DNA of 64,000 nucleotides. Source: Euzebya tangerina (lineage in GTDB: Bacteria; Actinomycetota; Nitriliruptoria; Euzebyales; Euzebyaceae). Shown in pieces: positions 4,966-48,763 of the stretch. Location of the stretch: assembly GCF_003074135.1 (NCBI RefSeq), contig NZ_PPDK01000001.1:2480001-2544000 (forward strand), in the 5' to 3' direction. The position numbers were made by a program, and so were the translations under genes. Below the pieces are notes generated by a model that saw only the letters and a list, made by a program, of their open reading frames with translations, did not search any database and was not told where the DNA came from. Positions within the stretch are counted from its first letter, which is position 1. Each line of letters begins with the position of its first letter.

Positions 4966-6147
4966 ATGCGCATCCTCGTACTGAACGGTCCGAACCTCAA
5001 CCTCCTCGGGGTGCGCGCACCTGAGGTCTACGGCTCGACCACACTCGATGACCTGGTGACCCAGACCCGGGCATGGGCTGCTGAGTTGGGCGTTGCGCAC
5101 GTCGAGGACTTCCAGAGCAATCACGAAGGCCAGCTGCTCGACCGGCTGCACGCGGCCCGCGGCCAGGTGGACGGCATCGTCTTCAACCCCGGAGCCTTCA
5201 CGCACTCGTCCTATGCACTGCACGACGCGATCGAGGCGATCGAGGTCCCGACCGTGGAGGTGCACATCTCCAACGTCGAGGAGCGCGAGCCCTGGCGTCG
5301 GATCTCCCTGGTCAGGCCCGCCTGCGTGCACACGATCTACGGGCGCGGCGTCGAGGGCTATCGCTGGGCGGTGCGGCACCTGGTGAGCCGGTCCGCCTGG
5401 CCCGTCGAACGGGTTCGGTACGGAGACGATCCCGACGCGTGGCTGGACGTCCGGCTGCCCGATGCGCCGGGCCCGCATCCCGTCGTCGTGTTGGTCCACG
5501 GTGGCTTCTGGCGCCACTACTGGACCTTCGACACGGTCGAGTCGATCGCCGTCGATCTCGCGCGTCGCGGGGTGGCGGTCGCCGTCCCGGAGTATCGACG
5601 GGTCGGTCCGGTGAGCCGGTCGGAGGATGATCCGCCCGTCTGGGATGCCCACCTGGATGTGGCTCGAGCCGTCAGTGCGGTGCTGTCACACGACGAGATC
5701 GACGGCGGGCGCTGGGCGATCGCCGGTCACTCGGCCGGCGGGCAGTTGGCCATCGCCGCCCTCGACGCGCTGCAGCACTCGGACGGAGGCGAGGTCGAGC
5801 CACCGCGGCTGGTGGTGTCGTTGGCTGGTGTGGTCGACCTGCCCCGTGCCGTGGAGGACGACCTCGGCGGCGGAGCGGCCGGCCGGTACGTGGCCGGCCT
5901 GGCTGATCCGGTGCGGGTGTCCCCCATGCACCGGTTGCCCCTGACGGCGCCGCTCCTGGTCGCCCACGGGCGGCAGGACCCGAGCGTTCCGGTGGCCTAC
6001 AGCGAGGCATACGCAGCGGCGGCAGCGGACACGGGCGTCGACGTCGAGTCGCTGATCACGGACGGCGGGCACTTCGAGTACCTCGAGCCCGAGGATCCGG
6101 CGTGGACGGCCGTGGCGGACCGCCTGGTGGCCTCTGTCCGGAGCTGA
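4966..6147 (+). CDS. aroQ: Fusion: type II 3-dehydroquinate dehydratase (AroQ) + alpha/beta hydrolase
   Basis: Residues 1 to about 145 are a type II 3-dehydroquinase of the shikimate pathway: 'LVLNGPNLNLLG' at the N-terminus, Tyr22 in 'EVYGSTT', 'NPGAFTHSSYALHDAI' and His100 in 'VEVHISNVEERE' match the known active-site elements. From about residue 150 to 393 there is an alpha/beta hydrolase. It has the oxyanion motif 'HGGFWRHYW', a nucleophile elbow 'GHSAGG', an acidic residue in 'HGRQDPSVPV' and a histidine in 'DGGHFEYLEP'. The hydrolase resembles kynurenine-formamidase/esterase types. No stop, frameshift or start signal separates the halves. Free-standing AroQ is about 145-150 aa, so the second domain is a full addition. 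Its substrate cannot be told from sequence. Confidence 0.88.
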   Translation: MRILVLNGPNLNLLGVRAPEVYGSTTLDDLVTQTRAWAAELGVAHVEDFQSNHEGQLLDRLHAARGQVDGIVFNPGAFTHSSYALHDAIEAIEVPTVEVHISNVEEREPWRRISLVRPACVHTIYGRGVEGYRWAVRHLVSRSAWPVERVRYGDDPDAWLDVRLPDAPGPHPVVVLVHGGFWRHYWTFDTVESIAVDLARRGVAVAVPEYRRVGPVSRSEDDPPVWDAHLDVARAVSAVLSHDEIDGGRWAIAGHSAGGQLAIAALDALQHSDGGEVEPPRLVVSLAGVVDLPRAVEDDLGGGAAGRYVAGLADPVRVSPMHRLPLTAPLLVAHGRQDPSVPVAYSEAYAAAAADTGVDVESLITDGGHFEYLEPEDPAWTAVADRLVASVRS

Positions 6148-6182: not shown

Positions 6183-6230
6183 CACGATCGGGGCCCAACC
6201 CACGTATTCGCGGCGTCTTGCACGATCGTG
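6183..6230 (+). repeat. 48-bp palindromic repeat, copy A
   Basis: The element starts CACGATCG, followed by GGGCCCAACCC, and ends CACGATCGTG, exactly 48 bases in all. Two further copies of the same length and layout lie at 43866-43913 (same strand) and 44914-44961 (opposite strand). This copy sits between the aroQ fusion gene and the sigma factor gene. Confidence 0.75.
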
Positions 6231-6285
6231 CAGTTGATCGTCCATAGCCGACGAAGTCCACGATCGCGCCGAATCACCCCTGCCA

Positions 6286-10500: not shown

Positions 10501-11907
10501 ATGGACGTAGTCGACTCACTCATGGACGTCGTGGGCAACACGCCCCTGGTCCGCATGCGGGCCTTCTCCCGCGACGTGAAGCCAACAATCCTCGCGAAGG
10601 TCGAGTACCTCAACCCCGGCGGGTCGGTGAAGGACCGCATCGGCATGGCCATGATCGAGGCGGCGGAGGCGTCCGGGGAACTCCAACCCGGCGGCACCAT
10701 CGTCGAGCCGACCAGCGGGAACACCGGTGCCGGGCTGGCGATCGCGGCCTCCCAGCGGGGCTACAAGTGCATCTTCGTCATGCCGGACAAGATGTCGGCG
10801 GAGAAGATCAACCTGCTGCGCGCCTATGGAGCCGAGGTCGTGGTCTGCCCCACCGACGTCGACCCGGAGGATCCCCGGTCCTACTACAAGACCTCCGACC
10901 GACTCGTCGAGGAGACCCCTGGGGCCTTCAAGCCCGGCCAGTACTGGAACCAGGCCAACCCCCAGGCCCACTACGAGAGCACCGGCCCGGAGATCTGGCA
11001 GCAGACCGACGGCACCATCGACGTCTTCGTGGCTGGCGTCGGGACGGGCGGGACGATCACCGGAACGGCCCGGTACCTGAAGGAGCGCAACCCCGACATC
11101 CTGGTCGTCGGCGCCGACCCAGAAGGGTCGATCTACAACTCCGCGGAGGTGCACAGCTACCTCACCGAGGGCGTGGGCGAGGACTTCTGGCCCGGCACCT
11201 TCGACCCCGACCTGGTCGATGAGTACATCACCGTCAGCGACCGTGATGCGTTCCTGACGGCGCGCCGGATCACGAAGGAGGAGGGGATCCTGGTCGGTGG
11301 ATCGTGCGGCACCGCGGCGTACGCGGCGCTCCAGGTCGCCAAGCGATTCGAGGAGGACGCTGTCATCGTCACGCTGCTCCCCGACAGCGGCCGCAACTAC
11401 CTCTCCAAGATCTACAACGACGACTGGATGCGCGACCACGGCTTCCTGCGCTCCGGCGGCGCGGCCCGCCTGTCTGCGGTCCTCGACCACAAGCGGAGCG
11501 CCACGGACCTGCCGACCATCGTGCACGTCCATCCGCACGAGTCGGTCCGGGAGGCCATCGGAACGATGTCGGACTTCGGCGTCTCGCAGATGCCGGTCGT
11601 TGCCACAGCGGACGAGGGTCAGCAGACCCCGTCACGCTTCGACGAGCGGGCCAAGCTGATCGGCTCGATCCGCGAGCGGGGGCTGCTGGACCGCGCGTTC
11701 AACGACCCCGGCGTGCTCGAGAAGACCGTGGCCGACGTGATGGACGAGCCGCTCCCGGTGGTCGACACCTCCGACACCGTCGACGACGCGATGGGCCAAC
11801 TGACCAAGCAGGCCTCAGCCGTCCTGGTGTGCGAGGGCCAGTCTCCGGTCGGGGTCCTGACGCGCGCCGACATCCTCGAGTTCATGACGGCATCGAAGGA
11901 CACCTGA
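10501..11907 (+). CDS. cbs: Cystathionine beta-synthase with C-terminal CBS domains
   Basis: This PLP enzyme joins homocysteine and serine to make cystathionine. The PLP lysine is Lys44 in 'NPGGSVKDRIG'; 'EPTSGNTGAGLA' and the phosphate loop 'GVGTGGTITGTARYL' follow. The core reaches about residue 320. A pair of CBS domains occupies roughly residues 340-465 ('VREAIGTMSDFGVSQMPVVA', 'ADVMDEPLPVVDTSDTVDDA'), suggesting regulation by an adenosine ligand. At 468 aa it has the length of a full CBS rather than cysteine synthase. A GAGG lies 8 bases before the ATG. Its stop shares a base with the start of the following cystathionine lyase/synthase gene, so the two form a transsulfuration operon. Confidence 0.93.
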   Translation: MDVVDSLMDVVGNTPLVRMRAFSRDVKPTILAKVEYLNPGGSVKDRIGMAMIEAAEASGELQPGGTIVEPTSGNTGAGLAIAASQRGYKCIFVMPDKMSAEKINLLRAYGAEVVVCPTDVDPEDPRSYYKTSDRLVEETPGAFKPGQYWNQANPQAHYESTGPEIWQQTDGTIDVFVAGVGTGGTITGTARYLKERNPDILVVGADPEGSIYNSAEVHSYLTEGVGEDFWPGTFDPDLVDEYITVSDRDAFLTARRITKEEGILVGGSCGTAAYAALQVAKRFEEDAVIVTLLPDSGRNYLSKIYNDDWMRDHGFLRSGGAARLSAVLDHKRSATDLPTIVHVHPHESVREAIGTMSDFGVSQMPVVATADEGQQTPSRFDERAKLIGSIRERGLLDRAFNDPGVLEKTVADVMDEPLPVVDTSDTVDDAMGQLTKQASAVLVCEGQSPVGVLTRADILEFMTASKDT

Positions 11908-13217
11908 TGGCGGACCGTGACGCTGCTGCGCACGACGAGGCGTCGGCTTCCGAGCCGGCGGGATTCTCAGCCGACTCGGCGCGCGATGCTCATCCTGCGC
12001 CCCGCGAGGCGTCGGCTTCCGAGCCGGTGGGATTCTCAGCCGACTCGGCGCGCAGTTCCCTGAAGCGCTGGCAGGACGCCGGCTTCGCCACCCGCGCCAT
12101 CCACGCCGGGCAGGACCCCGAACCCCGGACCGGGTCCGTCGCCGTCCCGGTCTTCCAGACCTCCACCTTCGCCCAACCCGCTGTCGGGCAGGACCTCGGG
12201 TGGGATTACGCCCGCTCCGCCAACCCGACGCGCGATGCGTTGGAGGAGTCGCTGGCCTCCATCGAGAAGGGCCGGTACGGTCTGGCCTTCGCCAGCGGCT
12301 CCGCGGCGCAGGACGCCATCGTGCGGACCCTGCGACCCGGCGACCACGTGGTCATGGCCCCCGACGTCTACGGCGGCACATACCGGCAGTTCAAGCACGT
12401 CCACGAGCCCTGGGGTCTGACCTTCGACCCGGTCGACCTCGGTGACCTCGCCGCCGTCGAAGCGGCGTGGCGGCCCGAGACCGCCGTCATCTGGATCGAG
12501 TCACCGACCAACCCGCTGCTCAACGTCTTCGACATCCAGGCGTTGGCCGAGTTCGCGCACGAGCGAGGCGCCACGGTTGTGGTCGACAACACCTTCGCGA
12601 CGTCCTACCTGCAGCAGCCGCTGACGCTCGGCGCCGACGTGGTGGTGCACTCGACGACCAAGTACCTGGGCGGCCACTCCGACGTCGTCGGCGGGGGCAT
12701 GGTCACCAACGACGAGGAGACCTACGAACGCGTCAAGTTCAATCAGAACGCCATGGGTGCGGTGCCCGGCCCGTGGGACGTCTACCTCGTGCTGCGGGGC
12801 ATCAAGACCCTCGCGCTGCGGATGGACCGGCACTGTGACAACGCCCAGGCCTGTGTGGAGGTGCTGACCTCCTCCGACGTGGTGACCTCGGTGCTCTACC
12901 CGGGCCTGGCGGGGCATCCCGGCCACGACATCGCCACCCGCCAGATGCGCGACTACGGCGGCATGATCAGCTTCCGGGTGGGTGATGAGGACACGGCACG
13001 TCGGATCTGTGCGTCCTTCGAGGTCTTCACCCTGGGCGAGTCGCTCGGCGCTGTCGAGTCACTGGTCGAACACCCCGGAGCGATGACCCACCAGTCTGTG
13101 GCAGGCTCGCCCTTGGAGGTGCCGAGCGATCTGATCCGCCTCAGCGTGGGGGTGGAGTCCCGCGAAGACCTGGTGGAGGATCTCCGACAGGCCCTGGCCG
13201 CCGGCTCGGCAGGCTGA
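11907..13217 (+). CDS. metB: Cystathionine gamma-synthase/lyase (Cys/Met metabolism PLP enzyme) with repeat-bearing N-terminal extension
   Basis: The 436-residue protein is a Cys/Met-metabolism PLP enzyme. The fold starts at about residue 58 ('FATRAIHAGQDPEPRTGSVA'); 'SANPTRDALEESLASIEKGR' follows and the PLP lysine is Lys252 in 'HSTTKYLGGHSDVVGG'. Synthase and lyase cannot be separated by eye; pairing with cbs suits reverse transsulfuration from methionine to cysteine. The first 57 residues are unusual: they hold two copies of a 16-residue block (EASASEP-GFSADSAR) encoded by a nearly identical 49-bp DNA repeat, and have no counterpart in the family. The ATG shares its A with the cbs stop, with GAAGGA as ribosome binding site. 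Confidence 0.9.
   Translation: MADRDAAAHDEASASEPAGFSADSARDAHPAPREASASEPVGFSADSARSSLKRWQDAGFATRAIHAGQDPEPRTGSVAVPVFQTSTFAQPAVGQDLGWDYARSANPTRDALEESLASIEKGRYGLAFASGSAAQDAIVRTLRPGDHVVMAPDVYGGTYRQFKHVHEPWGLTFDPVDLGDLAAVEAAWRPETAVIWIESPTNPLLNVFDIQALAEFAHERGATVVVDNTFATSYLQQPLTLGADVVVHSTTKYLGGHSDVVGGGMVTNDEETYERVKFNQNAMGAVPGPWDVYLVLRGIKTLALRMDRHCDNAQACVEVLTSSDVVTSVLYPGLAGHPGHDIATRQMRDYGGMISFRVGDEDTARRICASFEVFTLGESLGAVESLVEHPGAMTHQSVAGSPLEVPSDLIRLSVGVESREDLVEDLRQALAAGSAG
11936..11984 (+). repeat. In-frame repeat block 1 in metB
   Basis: A 49-bp block (core 48 bp, 16 codons) with inverted arms GTCGGCT and AGCCGAC, ending CTCGGCGCGC. It is matched at all but one position by 12005-12053. Confidence 0.8.
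12005..12053 (+). repeat. In-frame repeat block 2 in metB
   Basis: This second copy starts 69 bases after the first and differs from it at one base (C to T, giving Val for Ala). A 20-base spacer separates the two. Confidence 0.8.
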
Positions 13218-21642: not shown

Positions 21643-21659
21643 TTCGTGCTGGCTCTGAC

Positions 21660-21771
21660 ATGGTGGGTGGGCTTCCCCCCGCTGAGGCGCGCAAACTCCA
21701 CCCACCCGTCCTCAGCGCGCCATGGTGGGTGGGCTTCCCCCCGCTGAGGCGCGCGAAGTCCACCCACTCGT
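21660..21771. repeat. Tandem palindromic repeat between convergent genes
   Basis: Two units start at 21660 and 21722 (period 62). Their first 33 bases are identical: ATGGTGGGTGGGCTTC, then CCCCCCGCTGAGGCGCGC with one base shared at the join. Each unit can fold, pairing GTGGGTGGGCTTC with (in unit 2) GAAGTCCACCCAC. The units lie between the subtilase gene and the convergent coiled-coil gene, where a two-way terminator would be expected. Confidence 0.75.
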
Positions 21772-21797
21772 CGACCAGCCGCCGACGTGGACCGCCG

Positions 21798-37624: not shown

Positions 37625-37687
37625 GACGGCTCGCAAGACAGTCATGCCAAGGCCCTGCCCGATCTGAGCCGCCGCTTGGAGACCGCC

Positions 37688-40600
37688 GTGAAGAGATCAC
37701 TTGCCCGCCTGCTCCTGCTCGCCCTCGTCCTCACGCTGCTGCCAGCGGTGGCGGGTGCCCAGCCCGCGGAACCCGACTTCGACAGCGACCGGCGCAACCC
37801 GGAGCTCGAGTCGGTGCGGGCCGATGAGGTCCCCGATGTCGCTGATCGGGCGGCCGACGCGCCGTCCCCCGAACTCTTCGCCCGCCCACTGGCCGAACCG
37901 CCGGCGGGGACGCTGTCCCAGGCCGAGGCCGACCCGTGCCCGCTCAGCTTCTTCCCCCCCGACCCCGATGACGCGTCGTTCTTCATCGGTGTGGTGCCCT
38001 ACGAGAGCGTCGCACCGCGGTTGTGCAGCGCAGCAACGTCTGACCGCGTCTCGGTCGCCGTCGCGGGCGAGAGTGCGTCTGGCCGTGAGGTTCCCGTGGT
38101 CGACATCACCGCGCCCTGGTCGGCGGAGGAGGCGGCGGCCAACGAGGCGCTCGAGGACCTGCTGATCGAGGACCCGACCGAGGCCGAGAGCCTCCTCGCC
38201 AGCGGGGGGTACGACGAGTACCGCCCCCACATAACCCTGATCGCCAACATCCACGGCAACGAGTACGAGGGTCTGGATGCAACCCTCGACTTCATCGACT
38301 ACGTGGCGACCGCGCCTGCTGATGCACCGATCGTGCAGAACCACGATGGTCTCGACGCCGACGAGATCGACCAGCTGCCCACCATCGAGCAGGTCCTCGA
38401 CGACTTCATCATCACGATCCTGCCGACCACGAACCCTGACGGCCGGGTGGCGGGCGAACGCCGCAACGCCAACGGATTCGACCTGAACCGCGACCACATC
38501 ACGGCGAGCCAGCCCGAGACACGGGTCATCCAACAGGCCATCACCGAGACTCTGCCGCTGCTGTTCCTGGACATCCACGGCTACGTCGGCCCCGGCGGGC
38601 TCATCGAGCCGTGCACCCCACCGCACAACTTCGCCTACGAGTACGACCTGTACCTGCCCAACGCCCTCGCCAACGCCGAGACGATGGAGGCCGAGGCCTT
38701 CCGCCGCTCGACCGTGCTCGACAACACCGGCGAGACGGGCACCTACCTGCCCTACCGCGACGACGAGCAGGGCTGGGACGACTGGCCACCGATCTTCACG
38801 GCGATGTATGCGATCTACCACGGCGGCAGCGGCCACACCATCGAGATCCCGCTCAGCCCTCGCTCATCCAGCCTCACGCCGGAGGAGCGCGCGGCCCGTG
38901 TGGCGACCAACGTCGAGTTCGCCCGAGCCTCGATCGACGGGACCATCATGCACGGCATGACGGCTCGTGACGAGATGCTGGCCAACCAACTCGAGTGGCA
39001 TCTCCGTGGTGTCACGGCTGCCGAGCAGACCAACGACAGCCTGCTCGGGACCTTCCCGGGCTTCGACGAGGTGGACCTCTGGGAGACCGAGTACCCCGAC
39101 GCCTACGTCATCCCCGTGGGGGAGGGGCAGGAGAGCGAGGCCGCGGCAACCCGTCTGGTCGATGCCCTGCTCGATCAGGACGTCGAGGTCACCAGCCTGC
39201 CAGCCGAGACGACCATCGGCGGCACCAGCTACCCGGCCGGGAGTTGGGTGGTGCCCATGGCTCAGGCCAAGCGCGCCGTGGCTCAGACGATGCTCGACGC
39301 GGGACAGGACATCACCCCCCGCGGGATCATCCGGATGTACGACATCTCGGGATGGAGCCACAGCGACCTGTGGGGCGCCACGGTCGACGTCATCGAGTCC
39401 GACCCGTTGAGCGACATCGGCGACCCCGTGGGCGATACGCCCGAGATCGGCAGCGTCGAACCGGGCGAGGCAGCTGCGTACACCTTCCAGATCCGCGACG
39501 CCGCTGACATCCGGATCCTGAACGACTTGCTGGACGACGGGGTGGCGGTCCAGCGCGCTGCCGACGGGACGATCCTGGTCTCGCCTGCGGCGCGGGACGA
39601 CCTGATCGCGATTGCCGCCGAGACCGACGTGACGTTCGAGCCGGTGGCCGAGTTGCCAGCTGAGCGGACCGAGTTGGAGGCGTTGACGGTCGGGACCTTC
39701 ACCTTCGACACCGACGAGTACGTGATCGCGGATGTCCTCGGCTTCGACCTCGTCGAGATCGACGAGACGGTCATCAACGGGACCAACCCCGACACGAGCC
39801 TGGACGACATCGACGTGATGTACCTGTTCGGCGCCGTCGGGGGTGTCGACACCACCGGGGACACCAACCTCGTGGCGTGGCTGGAGGACGGTGGCGGCAT
39901 CGTCGGCGTCGGCGACGCTGGCGAGACCCTGGCCAACGCCGGCTACGAGGTGCCCACCGACAGCCCGGTCAGCTTCGCCACGAACGGGACCGTCAACGTC
40001 ACGCAGGACCCTGCCTCCACGGTCATGCCGGCGCGACCCGCTGATGACGTGACCTTCGTCTACGGCCCTACGTTCTTCGAGGATCTGCCGGCCGGGTTCG
40101 CGGCCCAGCAGACGCTCGCCGAGGGCACCACGACCGGTGGCGCGCTGCGGGCTGGTCACTGGGCGCAGACCGACGTCTATCCGCAGGCTGACTACGTCGG
40201 CCTGCCACTGACGGTCAGCGGCCAGCTGCCCGGTGAGGCGAGAGTGGTGCTCACCGGCACCGATGTGCTGTTCCGCGATCACGTCAAGGGGCTGTACAAG
40301 GACCTGGCCGACTGGATGTTGTGGACCACCGAAGGCCCGCTGACGACAGAGGACCTGGGCGAGCCGTTCGTCCCGTCTCCGGGCCCGGGCGACCCGGGTG
40401 ACCCCGGTGACCCGGGTGACCCCGGCGATCCGGGTGACCCCGGCGATCCGGGTGATCCCGGCGACCCGGGCGATCCGGGGGATCCCACCGACCCTGGCGA
40501 GGACGTCGTCGTGGACCGGATCGCCGGTCCCGAACGGATCGCCACGGCCATCGCCCTGTCGCAGGACGCCTTCCCCGACGGCGCGGACACCGTCGTGCTC

Positions 40601-41398
40601 GCAACCGCGGAGAACTTCCCCGACGCGCTGACCGCCGGGCCGTTGGCTGGCCTGGCCGACGGACCGGTTCTGCTCACCCCCGGTGCTGAACTGCCAGGAG
40701 CGGTGCTCGCCGAAATGGAGCGACTGGACCCCGAGGAGATCATCATCGTCGGCGGGACCGCTGCCGTCGGTCAGGCCGTCGAAACCGCGGCGGAGGCCGT
40801 TGCCGCGGTAGAGCGATTGGCTGGTCCGACCCGCTACGGGACCGCGGCGGCCGTCTCGGCCCGCTTCGCCGACACAGGCGCGCCGGTTGTGATCGCCACC
40901 GGTGAGGTGTTCCCCGACGCCCTGTCCGGTGGGGTCCTCGCTGGCCGCCAGGCAGGCCCTGTCCTGCTGGTCCGCCCCGATGGTGTTCCGGCCGAGACCA
41001 CGGCCGAGCTGGACCGCTTGGCGCCCGACGACGTCGTCGTGATGGGCGGCACGGCTGCGGTCAGCGACGACACGCTCGGCGAGGTCGCAGCGACGATCGG
41101 ATTCGATCCCCGACGAATCGCCGGTGCAACTCGCTTCGAGACCGCCGCGCTGGCGGCAGCAGAGATCGGTTCGGCGGACGTCGCCTATCTCGCGACCGGG
41201 GGCGAGTTCGCAGACGCCCTCGCCGCGGTTCCGGTCGCCGTCATCACCGACGGGGTGCTGCTGCTGGTCCAGACCGATGGCGTGCCGCCGGAGGTGACCG
41301 ACGTGCTGACGGCGCTGTCCCCGGCTCGTATCCGGATCCTCGGCGGCACTGCGGCCGTCAGCGAAGCCGTGGAGGCGGCGCTGCTGGCCGACGGCTGA
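37688..41398 (+). CDS. Secreted M14 zinc carboxypeptidase with cell-wall-binding type 2 repeats
   Basis: The 1236-residue protein has a signal peptide ending near 'LLPAVAGA'. The M14 domain carries the zinc motif 'NIHGNEYEG' (His189, Glu192), a third ligand His297 in 'LDIHGYVG' and the catalytic Glu386 in 'GHTIEIPL'. A beta-rich middle region follows. Residues of about 900-935 are a GDP-type collagen-like linker from a 9-bp DNA repeat. Three cell-wall-binding type 2 repeats follow, starting near 941 ('DRIAGPERIATAIALS'), 1040 and 1141. It probably trims peptides while held on the cell wall. The GTG is supported by GGAG 6 bases upstream; a TTG at 37676 is less likely. Confidence 0.93.
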   Translation: MKRSLARLLLLALVLTLLPAVAGAQPAEPDFDSDRRNPELESVRADEVPDVADRAADAPSPELFARPLAEPPAGTLSQAEADPCPLSFFPPDPDDASFFIGVVPYESVAPRLCSAATSDRVSVAVAGESASGREVPVVDITAPWSAEEAAANEALEDLLIEDPTEAESLLASGGYDEYRPHITLIANIHGNEYEGLDATLDFIDYVATAPADAPIVQNHDGLDADEIDQLPTIEQVLDDFIITILPTTNPDGRVAGERRNANGFDLNRDHITASQPETRVIQQAITETLPLLFLDIHGYVGPGGLIEPCTPPHNFAYEYDLYLPNALANAETMEAEAFRRSTVLDNTGETGTYLPYRDDEQGWDDWPPIFTAMYAIYHGGSGHTIEIPLSPRSSSLTPEERAARVATNVEFARASIDGTIMHGMTARDEMLANQLEWHLRGVTAAEQTNDSLLGTFPGFDEVDLWETEYPDAYVIPVGEGQESEAAATRLVDALLDQDVEVTSLPAETTIGGTSYPAGSWVVPMAQAKRAVAQTMLDAGQDITPRGIIRMYDISGWSHSDLWGATVDVIESDPLSDIGDPVGDTPEIGSVEPGEAAAYTFQIRDAADIRILNDLLDDGVAVQRAADGTILVSPAARDDLIAIAAETDVTFEPVAELPAERTELEALTVGTFTFDTDEYVIADVLGFDLVEIDETVINGTNPDTSLDDIDVMYLFGAVGGVDTTGDTNLVAWLEDGGGIVGVGDAGETLANAGYEVPTDSPVSFATNGTVNVTQDPASTVMPARPADDVTFVYGPTFFEDLPAGFAAQQTLAEGTTTGGALRAGHWAQTDVYPQADYVGLPLTVSGQLPGEARVVLTGTDVLFRDHVKGLYKDLADWMLWTTEGPLTTEDLGEPFVPSPGPGDPGDPGDPGDPGDPGDPGDPGDPGDPGDPGDPTDPGEDVVVDRIAGPERIATAIALSQDAFPDGADTVVLATAENFPDALTAGPLAGLADGPVLLTPGAELPGAVLAEMERLDPEEIIIVGGTAAVGQAVETAAEAVAAVERLAGPTRYGTAAAVSARFADTGAPVVIATGEVFPDALSGGVLAGRQAGPVLLVRPDGVPAETTAELDRLAPDDVVVMGGTAAVSDDTLGEVAATIGFDPRRIAGATRFETAALAAAEIGSADVAYLATGGEFADALAAVPVAVITDGVLLLVQTDGVPPEVTDVLTALSPARIRILGGTAAVSEAVEAALLADG

Positions 41399-43696: not shown

Positions 43697-44875
43697 GTGG
43701 AAGGGCTCGAACGGGGCCGCGGGGTCTACGTCCACATCCCGTTCTGCCTCCGGCGCTGCGACTACTGCGACTTCACGACGTTCGCCGACCGGGACGAGGA
43801 CATCCCCGCGTACGTGGACGCCCTGGTGGCCCATATCGAGCGGTTCGGGGGTGGGCCGGTTTCTGCACGATCGGGGCCTAACCCCCACCTGGGCGGGTTT
43901 TGGCACGATCGTGACGACGATGTCGCGCTGGACTCGGTCTTCATCGGCGGTGGCACGCCGACCTACCTCCCCCCGGCCGACCTCTCCCGGGTCCTGGCCG
44001 CCGTGGCCGAGGCGCTCCCGCTGGACGCAGACGCCGAGATCACCGTCGAGGCCAACCCCGAGACCATCTCCGCCGAGATGGCACAAGCGCTGGCCGCCGG
44101 CGGCGTCACCCGCGTGAGCTTGGGCGCCCAGTCCTTCGACGACCGGGTCCTGACCACCCTGGGCCGCTGGCACGACCCGGCCTCGGTCGAGACCGCCACC
44201 GGTCGGCTGACCGAAGCCGGCATCAGCCGCCTGAGCCTCGACCTGATCTACGGCACGCCGGGGGAGTCCGACGGATCGTGGCAGCGCAGCCTCCAGCGTG
44301 TGGTGGACCTCGGGGTGACCCACGTGTCCGCCTACGCGCTGACGGTGGAGCCGAACACGCCCTATGCCAGCCGGGTCCGCCGCCAACCGGCGCTGGAGCC
44401 CGACGAGGATGTTCAGGCGGCCAGGATGCAGATGGCGGAGGAGACGCTGTCGACGGCGGGCCTGTCCCGCTATGAGGTCTCCAACTGGGCGGTCCCGGGC
44501 CACGAGAGCCGGCACAACCTCACCTACTGGCGGGGCGGGGAGTGGCTGGCCTTCGGCTCGGGCGCGCACGGCTCGTGGCAGGGCCGGCGATACTGGCTGG
44601 TCCGGGACCCGTCGAGGTATGCCCGGCTGGTCGGAGCCGGTGCCGAACCCCTCGGTGGAGAGGAGTGGCCCGACGCCGATCAGGTCCGCCTGGAGCGGCT
44701 GATGATGGGCCTCCGACTGGTCGAGGGGGTGCCCCGGGCTGCTGTCGAACCGTTGGACTCCACGGTGCTCGGGACGCTGATCGAGCGGGGCCTGGTCCGG
44801 GCCGACCATGGGTGGGTCGCGGTCACCCCGACGGGGAGGCCGCTGACCGACCGGATCGTGCGCCAGTTGGCCTAG
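43697..44875 (+). CDS. hemW: HemW-like radical SAM heme chaperone with an in-frame repeat insertion
   Basis: The 392-residue protein belongs to the HemW branch of radical SAM proteins, heme carriers once annotated as coproporphyrinogen oxidase HemN. The cluster motif is Cys17, Cys21 and Cys24 in 'PFCLRRCDYCDFTTF'; 'FIGGGTPTYL', 'TVEANPETIS' and 'VSLGAQSFDD' follow. Between 'IERFGG' and 'DSVFIGGGTP', where relatives have a short connector, residues 57-72 ('ARSGPNPHLGGFWHDR') are encoded by a 48-bp repeat also present at 6183 and 44914. The insert keeps the frame and lies in a loop before a core strand. The GTG at 43697 is the best start. Confidence 0.93.
   Translation: MEGLERGRGVYVHIPFCLRRCDYCDFTTFADRDEDIPAYVDALVAHIERFGGGPVSARSGPNPHLGGFWHDRDDDVALDSVFIGGGTPTYLPPADLSRVLAAVAEALPLDADAEITVEANPETISAEMAQALAAGGVTRVSLGAQSFDDRVLTTLGRWHDPASVETATGRLTEAGISRLSLDLIYGTPGESDGSWQRSLQRVVDLGVTHVSAYALTVEPNTPYASRVRRQPALEPDEDVQAARMQMAEETLSTAGLSRYEVSNWAVPGHESRHNLTYWRGGEWLAFGSGAHGSWQGRRYWLVRDPSRYARLVGAGAEPLGGEEWPDADQVRLERLMMGLRLVEGVPRAAVEPLDSTVLGTLIERGLVRADHGWVAVTPTGRPLTDRIVRQLA
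43866..43913 (+). repeat. 48-bp palindromic repeat, copy B (inside hemW)
   Basis: Starts CACGATCG, then GGGCCTAACCCCC, and ends CACGATCGTG; exactly 48 bases (16 codons). It is preceded by CCGGTTTCTG, a string found inside copy C as well. Confidence 0.8.
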
Positions 44876-44913
44876 CCCGTCGGGCTTCGGCCTCGCTTGG
44901 TCCGGTCATTCGA

Positions 44914-44961
44914 CACGATCGTGCAGAAACCGGCATATGCGGGGGTTAGCCCCCGATCGTG
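44914..44961 (-). repeat. 48-bp palindromic repeat, copy C
   Basis: On the minus strand it reads CACGATCG, GGGGCTAACCCCC, then GCCGGTTTCTG and CACGATCGTG, 48 bases in all. It lies in the 155-base gap between hemW and hrcA. No CIRCE-type HrcA operator is visible in the same gap. Confidence 0.8.
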
Positions 44962-48629: not shown

Positions 48630-48682
48630 GAGCCCTCAGTCTGCCGCGCCAGCCTCGTTCATGTGCCTGTCCGGTCACGGGC

Positions 48683-48721
48683 GGGTGGACTTCACCGTCC
48701 TCGAGGACGGGAAGTCCACCC
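48683..48721. repeat. 39-bp perfect hairpin in the gap after the nuclease gene
   Basis: Arms GGGTGGACTTC and GAAGTCCACCC (11 bp, perfect) enclose A plus the fully palindromic core CCGTCCTCGAGGACGG. It sits about 43 bases beyond the stop of the minus-strand nuclease gene and may end its transcript. The outer arms resemble those of the repeat at 21660-21771. Confidence 0.75.
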
Positions 48722-48763
48722 ACACTGCCGGGACGCGCAACACCGGTGCTCCGCGTCCGATGG

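Follow-up and report, generated by a model that had tools for sequence, protein, structure and literature searches.

A dispersed 48-bp palindrome family in Euzebya brackets the gene of a predicted AbiEi-DUF559 nuclease, a candidate RAYT-like partner

Palindromes of the REP type have so far been tied to the RAYT transposase, and one criterion for recognising them is that one end of the palindrome carries the tetranucleotide GTAG or CGTC (PMC3733652). REP-like repeats without RAYTs also exist, for example the CGTC families (PMC3733652), and these have had no known mobiliser. Rickettsia palindromic elements (RPE), which are about 150 bp long, lie in-frame in unrelated protein-coding genes and prefer one reading frame (PMC10969869). 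In the 64,000-nucleotide stretch of Euzebya tangerina DNA analysed here (the window), a sequence-only reading had singled out three repeats of 48 bp as a possible small mobile or REP-like element. We find that they belong to a family dispersed through Euzebya genomes, inverted copies of which bracket a nuclease gene. Our main reading, which we hold at a probability of roughly 0.6, is that these are REP-like, non-autonomous palindromes with an AbiEi-Vsr(DUF559) nuclease as their RAYT-like partner, whose part in binding, cutting and spreading is inferred.

The three repeats lie where that reading had placed them, each 48 bp long (Table 1). Their common ends proved real, since the arms CACGATCG and CGATCGTG are almost invariant family-wide, and what had been described as a middle diverging at constant length is a variable core, 41 distinct copies being alignable over 48 bp without a gap. 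Nineteen of the 64 columns in the copy alignment are invariant, taking in most of both 8-bp arms. Because the left arm was fixed by the search pattern and the right arm lay outside it, conservation of the right arm, from which only two copies depart, is not a product of ascertainment, aside from the limit of two mismatches over both arms together that was tolerated in a follow-up scan. About 45 palindromes are scattered through the window's genome (G000), where an exact pattern search for the 13-mer core CACGATCGGGGNC returned 51 occurrences (4.78 Mb, 12 contigs) and the reversed, uncomplemented control pattern returned none. The palindromic nature of the repeats stands only in part: of the 41 copies only 9 keep near-perfect symmetry through the core, and the rest carry an asymmetric right half, TTTCTGCACGATCGTG. 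Folded copies form hairpins of -18 to -42 kcal/mol, with near-perfect ones at -35 to -42 kcal/mol (three folded). The suggestion that the unit is modular is borne out by copy A, which overlaps a second 48-bp unit through a single shared CACGATCGTG box, and by CCGGTTTCTG ahead of copy B, which is the right-half module of another unit. Chaining by the shared box is also seen in L007 and L008, and further units stand in tandem, 72-73 bp apart. A HIP1-like methylation motif was ruled out, as the hexamer CGATCG is not in excess in the window (57 observed, 72 expected), and a function at the RNA level was rejected, as covariation of core pairs was not clearly beyond shuffles.

Table 1. Palindrome copies and associated features in the window (positions are those of the whole stretch).
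Feature	Position	Strand	Remarks
Copy A	6183-6230	+	Asymmetric core; 3' of a gene ending at 6147
Second 48-bp unit chained to copy A	6221-6268		10-bp box CACGATCGTG in common with copy A; core differs; CGATCGCG as last arm
Second-family doublet	21662-21768 (repeat-finder listing 21659-21772)		45-bp units GGTGGGTGG..CCACCCACC with 62-bp spacing, at a convergent junction
Host gene of copy B, hemW-like, radical SAM	43697-44875	+	Pfam Radical_SAM, HemN_C; start codon predicted
CCGGTTTCTG, right-half module abutting copy B	43856-43865	+	Identical to the module inside copy C
Copy B	43866-43913	+	In-frame inside hemW; with flanks encodes ..SARSGPNPHLGGFWHDRD..
Copy C	44914-44961	-	38 bp past the hemW stop codon, before hrcA
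Second-family single 45-bp copy, diverged	48680-48724 (repeat-finder listing 48680-48723)

We then considered where the copies lie relative to genes. Thirty-two of the 41 copies are intergenic, 12 between plus-strand genes, 11 between minus-strand genes, 8 at convergent junctions and 1 at a divergent one; a further 7 fall within predicted ORFs and 2 across the predicted start of a gene. These counts are approximate, the genes having been called by a simple codon-usage gene finder. Divergent junctions thus hold 1 of 32 intergenic copies, compared with 11 of the 51 junctions in the window. Copies are mostly 3' of genes and rare in divergent promoters, which meets the REP-type criterion for location. 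Many lie 5-40 bp past a stop codon, and some end 5-7 bp ahead of the neighbouring gene.

Comparison with orthologues revealed sites that are filled in one genome and empty in another. Copy B is in-frame in hemW, and HemW of G001-G004 lacks the insertion; carB of G000 contains an in-frame copy (L169) that is missing from carB of G001-G003; a VWA gene carries an in-frame copy (L027) at a site that is also filled in G001 and is empty in G002 and G003. At the hemW-hrcA junction, copy C is absent from the same position in G001. Six of the seven intragenic copies are read in the same frame, giving peptides of the type (A/S/T)RSGP..DR. Predicted in-frame copies occur in four further ORFs (E2 subunit, DUF2520-like, methyltransferase and hydratase), which were not compared with orthologues; these four, like carB and the VWA gene, are named by sequence resemblance only. 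No target-site duplication could be defined, the filled and empty pairs being too diverged to fix boundaries. The sequence-only reading would have failed had the genome held no further copies, or had the three loci been alike merely by descent of their flanks. Neither is the case: the family is genome-wide and multi-copy, and orthologous sites in relatives are empty, which supports its view of a small mobile or REP-like element.

A model built from sequence alone detects the family in all four Euzebya genomes, with at least 65, 24, 29 and 58 matches over the two strands; outside Euzebya it gave only weak matches. The genomes used are in part drafts. The second replicon of the E. pacifica genome is identical to plasmid NZ_CP031166.1 across the 20 kb that were compared. 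The core variant differs from species to species at a length that is nearly always 48 bp, and orthologous sites in G002 and G003 retain the arms with the core swapped for another palindrome. At one such pair of loci (L139 in G003, L204 in G002), a tandem pair inside an ORF has had both cores exchanged with arms and length retained, so that blocks of residues are replaced.

Searches for a RAYT or Y1 transposase (Y1_Tnp, PF01797) gave no match in G000-G003 and G005, whereas the controls did give matches. A RAYT was excluded as the mobiliser, there being no Y1 transposase gene in the genus. At G000:C1:3083757-3084983, two plus-strand and two minus-strand copies instead enclose an ORF of 293 aa that has a DUF559 domain. 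In G001 and G002 the orthologues have inverted pairs or triplets of the local variant around them, and bracketing by inverted tandem copies of the species' own variant holds at the orthologous locus in all four Euzebya species. In E. pacifica the bracketing pairs remain around a nuclease gene (L225 601-2769) that an istA/istB insertion of the IS21 type has broken up. The neighbours of the locus are trpD and an AsnC-type gene (the trpD side falls outside the E. pacifica stretch examined), and among these no AbiEii-type toxin gene was found. The nuclease gene of G001 (L227 3009-3899) is flipped relative to these conserved neighbours, as expected of recombination between inverted repeats. The locus itself has not been seen to move, given its shared genomic position in the four species and the IS21-type break in E. 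pacifica. There was no Rfam match at the locus. Seven other DUF559 genes are unflanked by the 48-bp family, and several of them have palindromes of their own.

The G000, G001 and G002 proteins score above the cut-off for PF04480 (DUF559), and D, E, H and D columns are conserved in the alignment of homologues. An AlphaFold2 model computed from 24 homologues had a mean pLDDT of 92.6 (a model from only 3 sequences reached 40 and was discarded). AbiEi antitoxin aligns with its N-terminal half over ~185 columns (E = 4.8e-6), and the match to 3r3p, the catalytic domain of I-Bth0305I, has a weaker E-value with a probability of 0.99 and a target TM-score of 0.76. Judged from this predicted structure, the protein joins a DNA-binding domain of the AbiEi type to a Vsr-like (DUF559) PD-(D/E)XK nuclease, in line with the description of DUF559 as Vsr-like PD-(D/E)XK (PMC12907096).

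Homologues of the nuclease were found in 66 of the 397 actinobacterial genomes searched, and the association with palindromes recurs there. A hairpin (score 11 or more) was present near the gene at 14 of 22 non-Euzebya loci, compared with 17 of 208 control intergenic junctions. When the left flank was matched to the reverse complement of the right, 24 of 60 loci exceeded the 99th percentile of 600 mismatched pairs (0.6 expected; Euzebya main locus left out), and ~60% of DUF559 loci had no inverted flank match at that cut-off. The best flank alignments inspected were mostly palindromes of ~45-50 bp, often in tandem; four matches (L236, L250, L334 and L340) are long alignments that are partly composition-driven. 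Palindromes from 12 such flanks were searched together against their 12 genomes, and eight of them proved to be dispersed in their own genome, with almost no matches across genomes (G008, ~30 places; G010, ~22; G247 and G017, ~10 each; G339 and G376, ~7 each; G013, 4; G116, 3); these are hand-counted distinct places at E below ~1e-4 to 3e-4 and are to be read as at least so many. In the other four (G175, G076, G034 and G074) the palindrome was found beside the nuclease gene only. The 12 had been chosen for being palindromic, and the comparison was made without control palindromes. Copies in G008 are all 44 bp long, mostly in pairs 71 bp apart and mostly 90-100% identical, and those in G247 are 50 bp long with conserved arms and unrelated cores.

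Tandem spacings at the nuclease loci are whole helical turns. The best period per locus clusters at 60-62, 72-73, 81-82, 92 and 103 bp, with phasing at a 10.5-bp period (Rayleigh R = 0.82; p = 1e-6; 17 loci). With 12 weaker loci added, p is 4e-5, which is the safer figure because the 17-locus subset was picked by score and by eye.

The window contains a second family of palindromes (Table 1), which a repeat finder had listed before the nuclease model arose. Another DUF559 gene in the same genome, L349, has palindromes with these arms on either side (E = 4e-6 and 5e-5), an independent match. The palindrome flanking a third paralogue, L310, likewise has a dispersed copy (L014; E = 7e-14). Other DUF559-type genes in G000 (L350, L352 and L353) and G001 (L354) are flanked on each side by inverted repeats of other kinds, such as GGTGTGTCGGC..GACACA and GGGTGCGCC..GGCGCACCC. 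Two other repeats were also seen in the window. A 59-bp tandem repeat with a 69-bp period at 11926-12053 (93% identical, partly palindromic) sits at the N-terminus of ORF 11907-13217, has a weak match in L175 (E = 6e-4), and is possibly a further palindrome family. The other, at 40375-40500 within the large ORF 37676-41398, is a run of tandem repeats of 9 bp, of the collagen-like Gly-Asp-Pro type if read in the frame of that ORF.

Could the palindromes be binding sites through which the AbiEi-DUF559 protein regulates its own gene and a dispersed regulon, without being mobilised by it? Binding to inverted repeats in the promoter of their own gene is a property of AbiEi proteins. The AbiEi antitoxin fold of the N-terminal half and the helically phased pairs, which would suit cooperative binding, give this idea some footing. 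It is nevertheless unlikely, though it keeps a real minority chance, in that copies flank the nuclease gene downstream as well as upstream, avoid divergent promoters and lie in several cases within ORFs, and in that the near-identical copies at ~30 places in G008 are typical of recent spread. A different objection is that another, unidentified transposase spreads the palindromes and that the DUF559 gene is a passenger beside them, or is domesticating them. No transposition by DUF559 proteins was reported in the literature searched, and in E. pacifica copies persist beside an interrupted gene; we still consider this improbable, and hard to sustain given that the association recurs phylum-wide at homologues with unrelated palindromes and that DUF559 paralogues of one genome are flanked by differing ones.

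That the copies are selected transcription terminators or mRNA-stabilising hairpins, multiplied by ordinary duplication, would account for their folding and for the many that closely follow stop codons. Yet no T-run follows the copies inspected, several lie within ORFs or end just before a neighbouring gene, the core pairs do not clearly covary, and orthologous copies in G002 and G003 have had their cores replaced, so we give this explanation very little weight. Chance likeness of GC-rich palindromes, which the sequence-only reading had already discounted, can be practically dismissed: CACGATCG by itself exceeds its expected count in the window only about twofold, but the core count of 51 against 0 in the control, and an element scan without a match in 486 kb of non-Euzebya DNA, leave it almost no room.

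We therefore return to mobilisation of the palindromes by the nuclease, which is an inference, no transposition, binding or cleavage having been observed. The AbiEi domain would bind paired palindromes that share a face of the helix, and the Vsr domain may then nick or cut at the bound palindromes. Copy-in repair or transposition, or else the exchange of a core between its two arms, would spread the copies, the nuclease taking the role that RAYT has for classical REPs. Surviving copies would be found mostly where they are tolerated, 3' of genes or in-frame, the RSGP..PDR reading presumably encoding a short hydrophilic loop. Evenly poised, in our judgement, is the wider proposal that AbiEi-Vsr(DUF559) nucleases mobilise many lineage-specific palindrome families. 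These would form a selfish REP-like system built on a homing-endonuclease-type nuclease and not on Y1, with recognition of phased pairs, one family per paralogue, and in-frame protein insertions and loop block replacement as by-products.

We found no report of an association of DUF559 with palindromic or inverted repeats in the open-access literature searched (subscription papers and preprints were outside our scope). Palindromes bracketing the gene of a DNA-cutting protein to which they had not been linked suggest an unrecognised kind of selfish repeat system. If the proposal is true, a second and unrelated partner nuclease would explain the origin of RAYT-less repeats of this kind across the phylum, and DUF559, a common domain of 'unknown function', would gain a function together with the AbiEi-type domain it is paired with. 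CarB and HemW, with their inserted peptides (RSGPDPHMRGSAPDR), would then be examples, accessible to study, of proteins into which selfish DNA has written peptides.

Among known systems, AbiE (type IV) toxin-antitoxin shares with the Euzebya protein the N-terminal AbiEi antitoxin fold; unlike it, the Euzebya locus has no adjoining AbiEii-type toxin gene and its protein has an extra nuclease domain. Vsr/EDxHD homing endonucleases (I-Bth0305I, Caulobacter VsrA) share the catalytic fold of the C-terminal domain, but the Euzebya nuclease is fused to AbiEi, has not been seen in an intron or intein, and is bracketed by palindrome pairs. MITEs are likewise short and non-autonomous with terminal inverted repeats; in the present case no same-ended parent transposon has been shown to move and no target-site duplication was found, the sole same-ended autonomous candidate seen being the DUF559 unit bracketed by the elements, whose transposition has not been demonstrated. 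The in-frame insertion of RPE is met again in hemW, carB and the VWA gene by orthologue comparison. RPE, however, are ~150 bp long and belong to Rickettsia, with no partner gene named in PMC10969869, whereas the Euzebya family is 48 bp long, actinobacterial and mostly intergenic, and has a candidate partner nuclease.

The closest likeness is to REP/BIME (RAYT, TnpA-REP), which are also short dispersed palindromes, often paired and some inside genes (compare PMC3733652), lying mostly 3' of genes between co-directional or convergent genes and bracketing the gene of a DNA-processing protein. The palindromes described here differ in being 44-50 bp long with conserved arms at both ends and a variable core, in standing in helically phased pairs, and in having as partner an AbiEi-Vsr/DUF559 nuclease without a Y1 tyrosine transposase; their pairs bracket this nuclease gene and not a RAYT, its role as mobiliser remaining to be shown. 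No conserved GTAG or CGTC tag was seen in the flank columns of the Euzebya copy alignment. Lacking both RAYT and tag, the family is not filed under REP/RAYT, which it would nonetheless resemble in its way of working.
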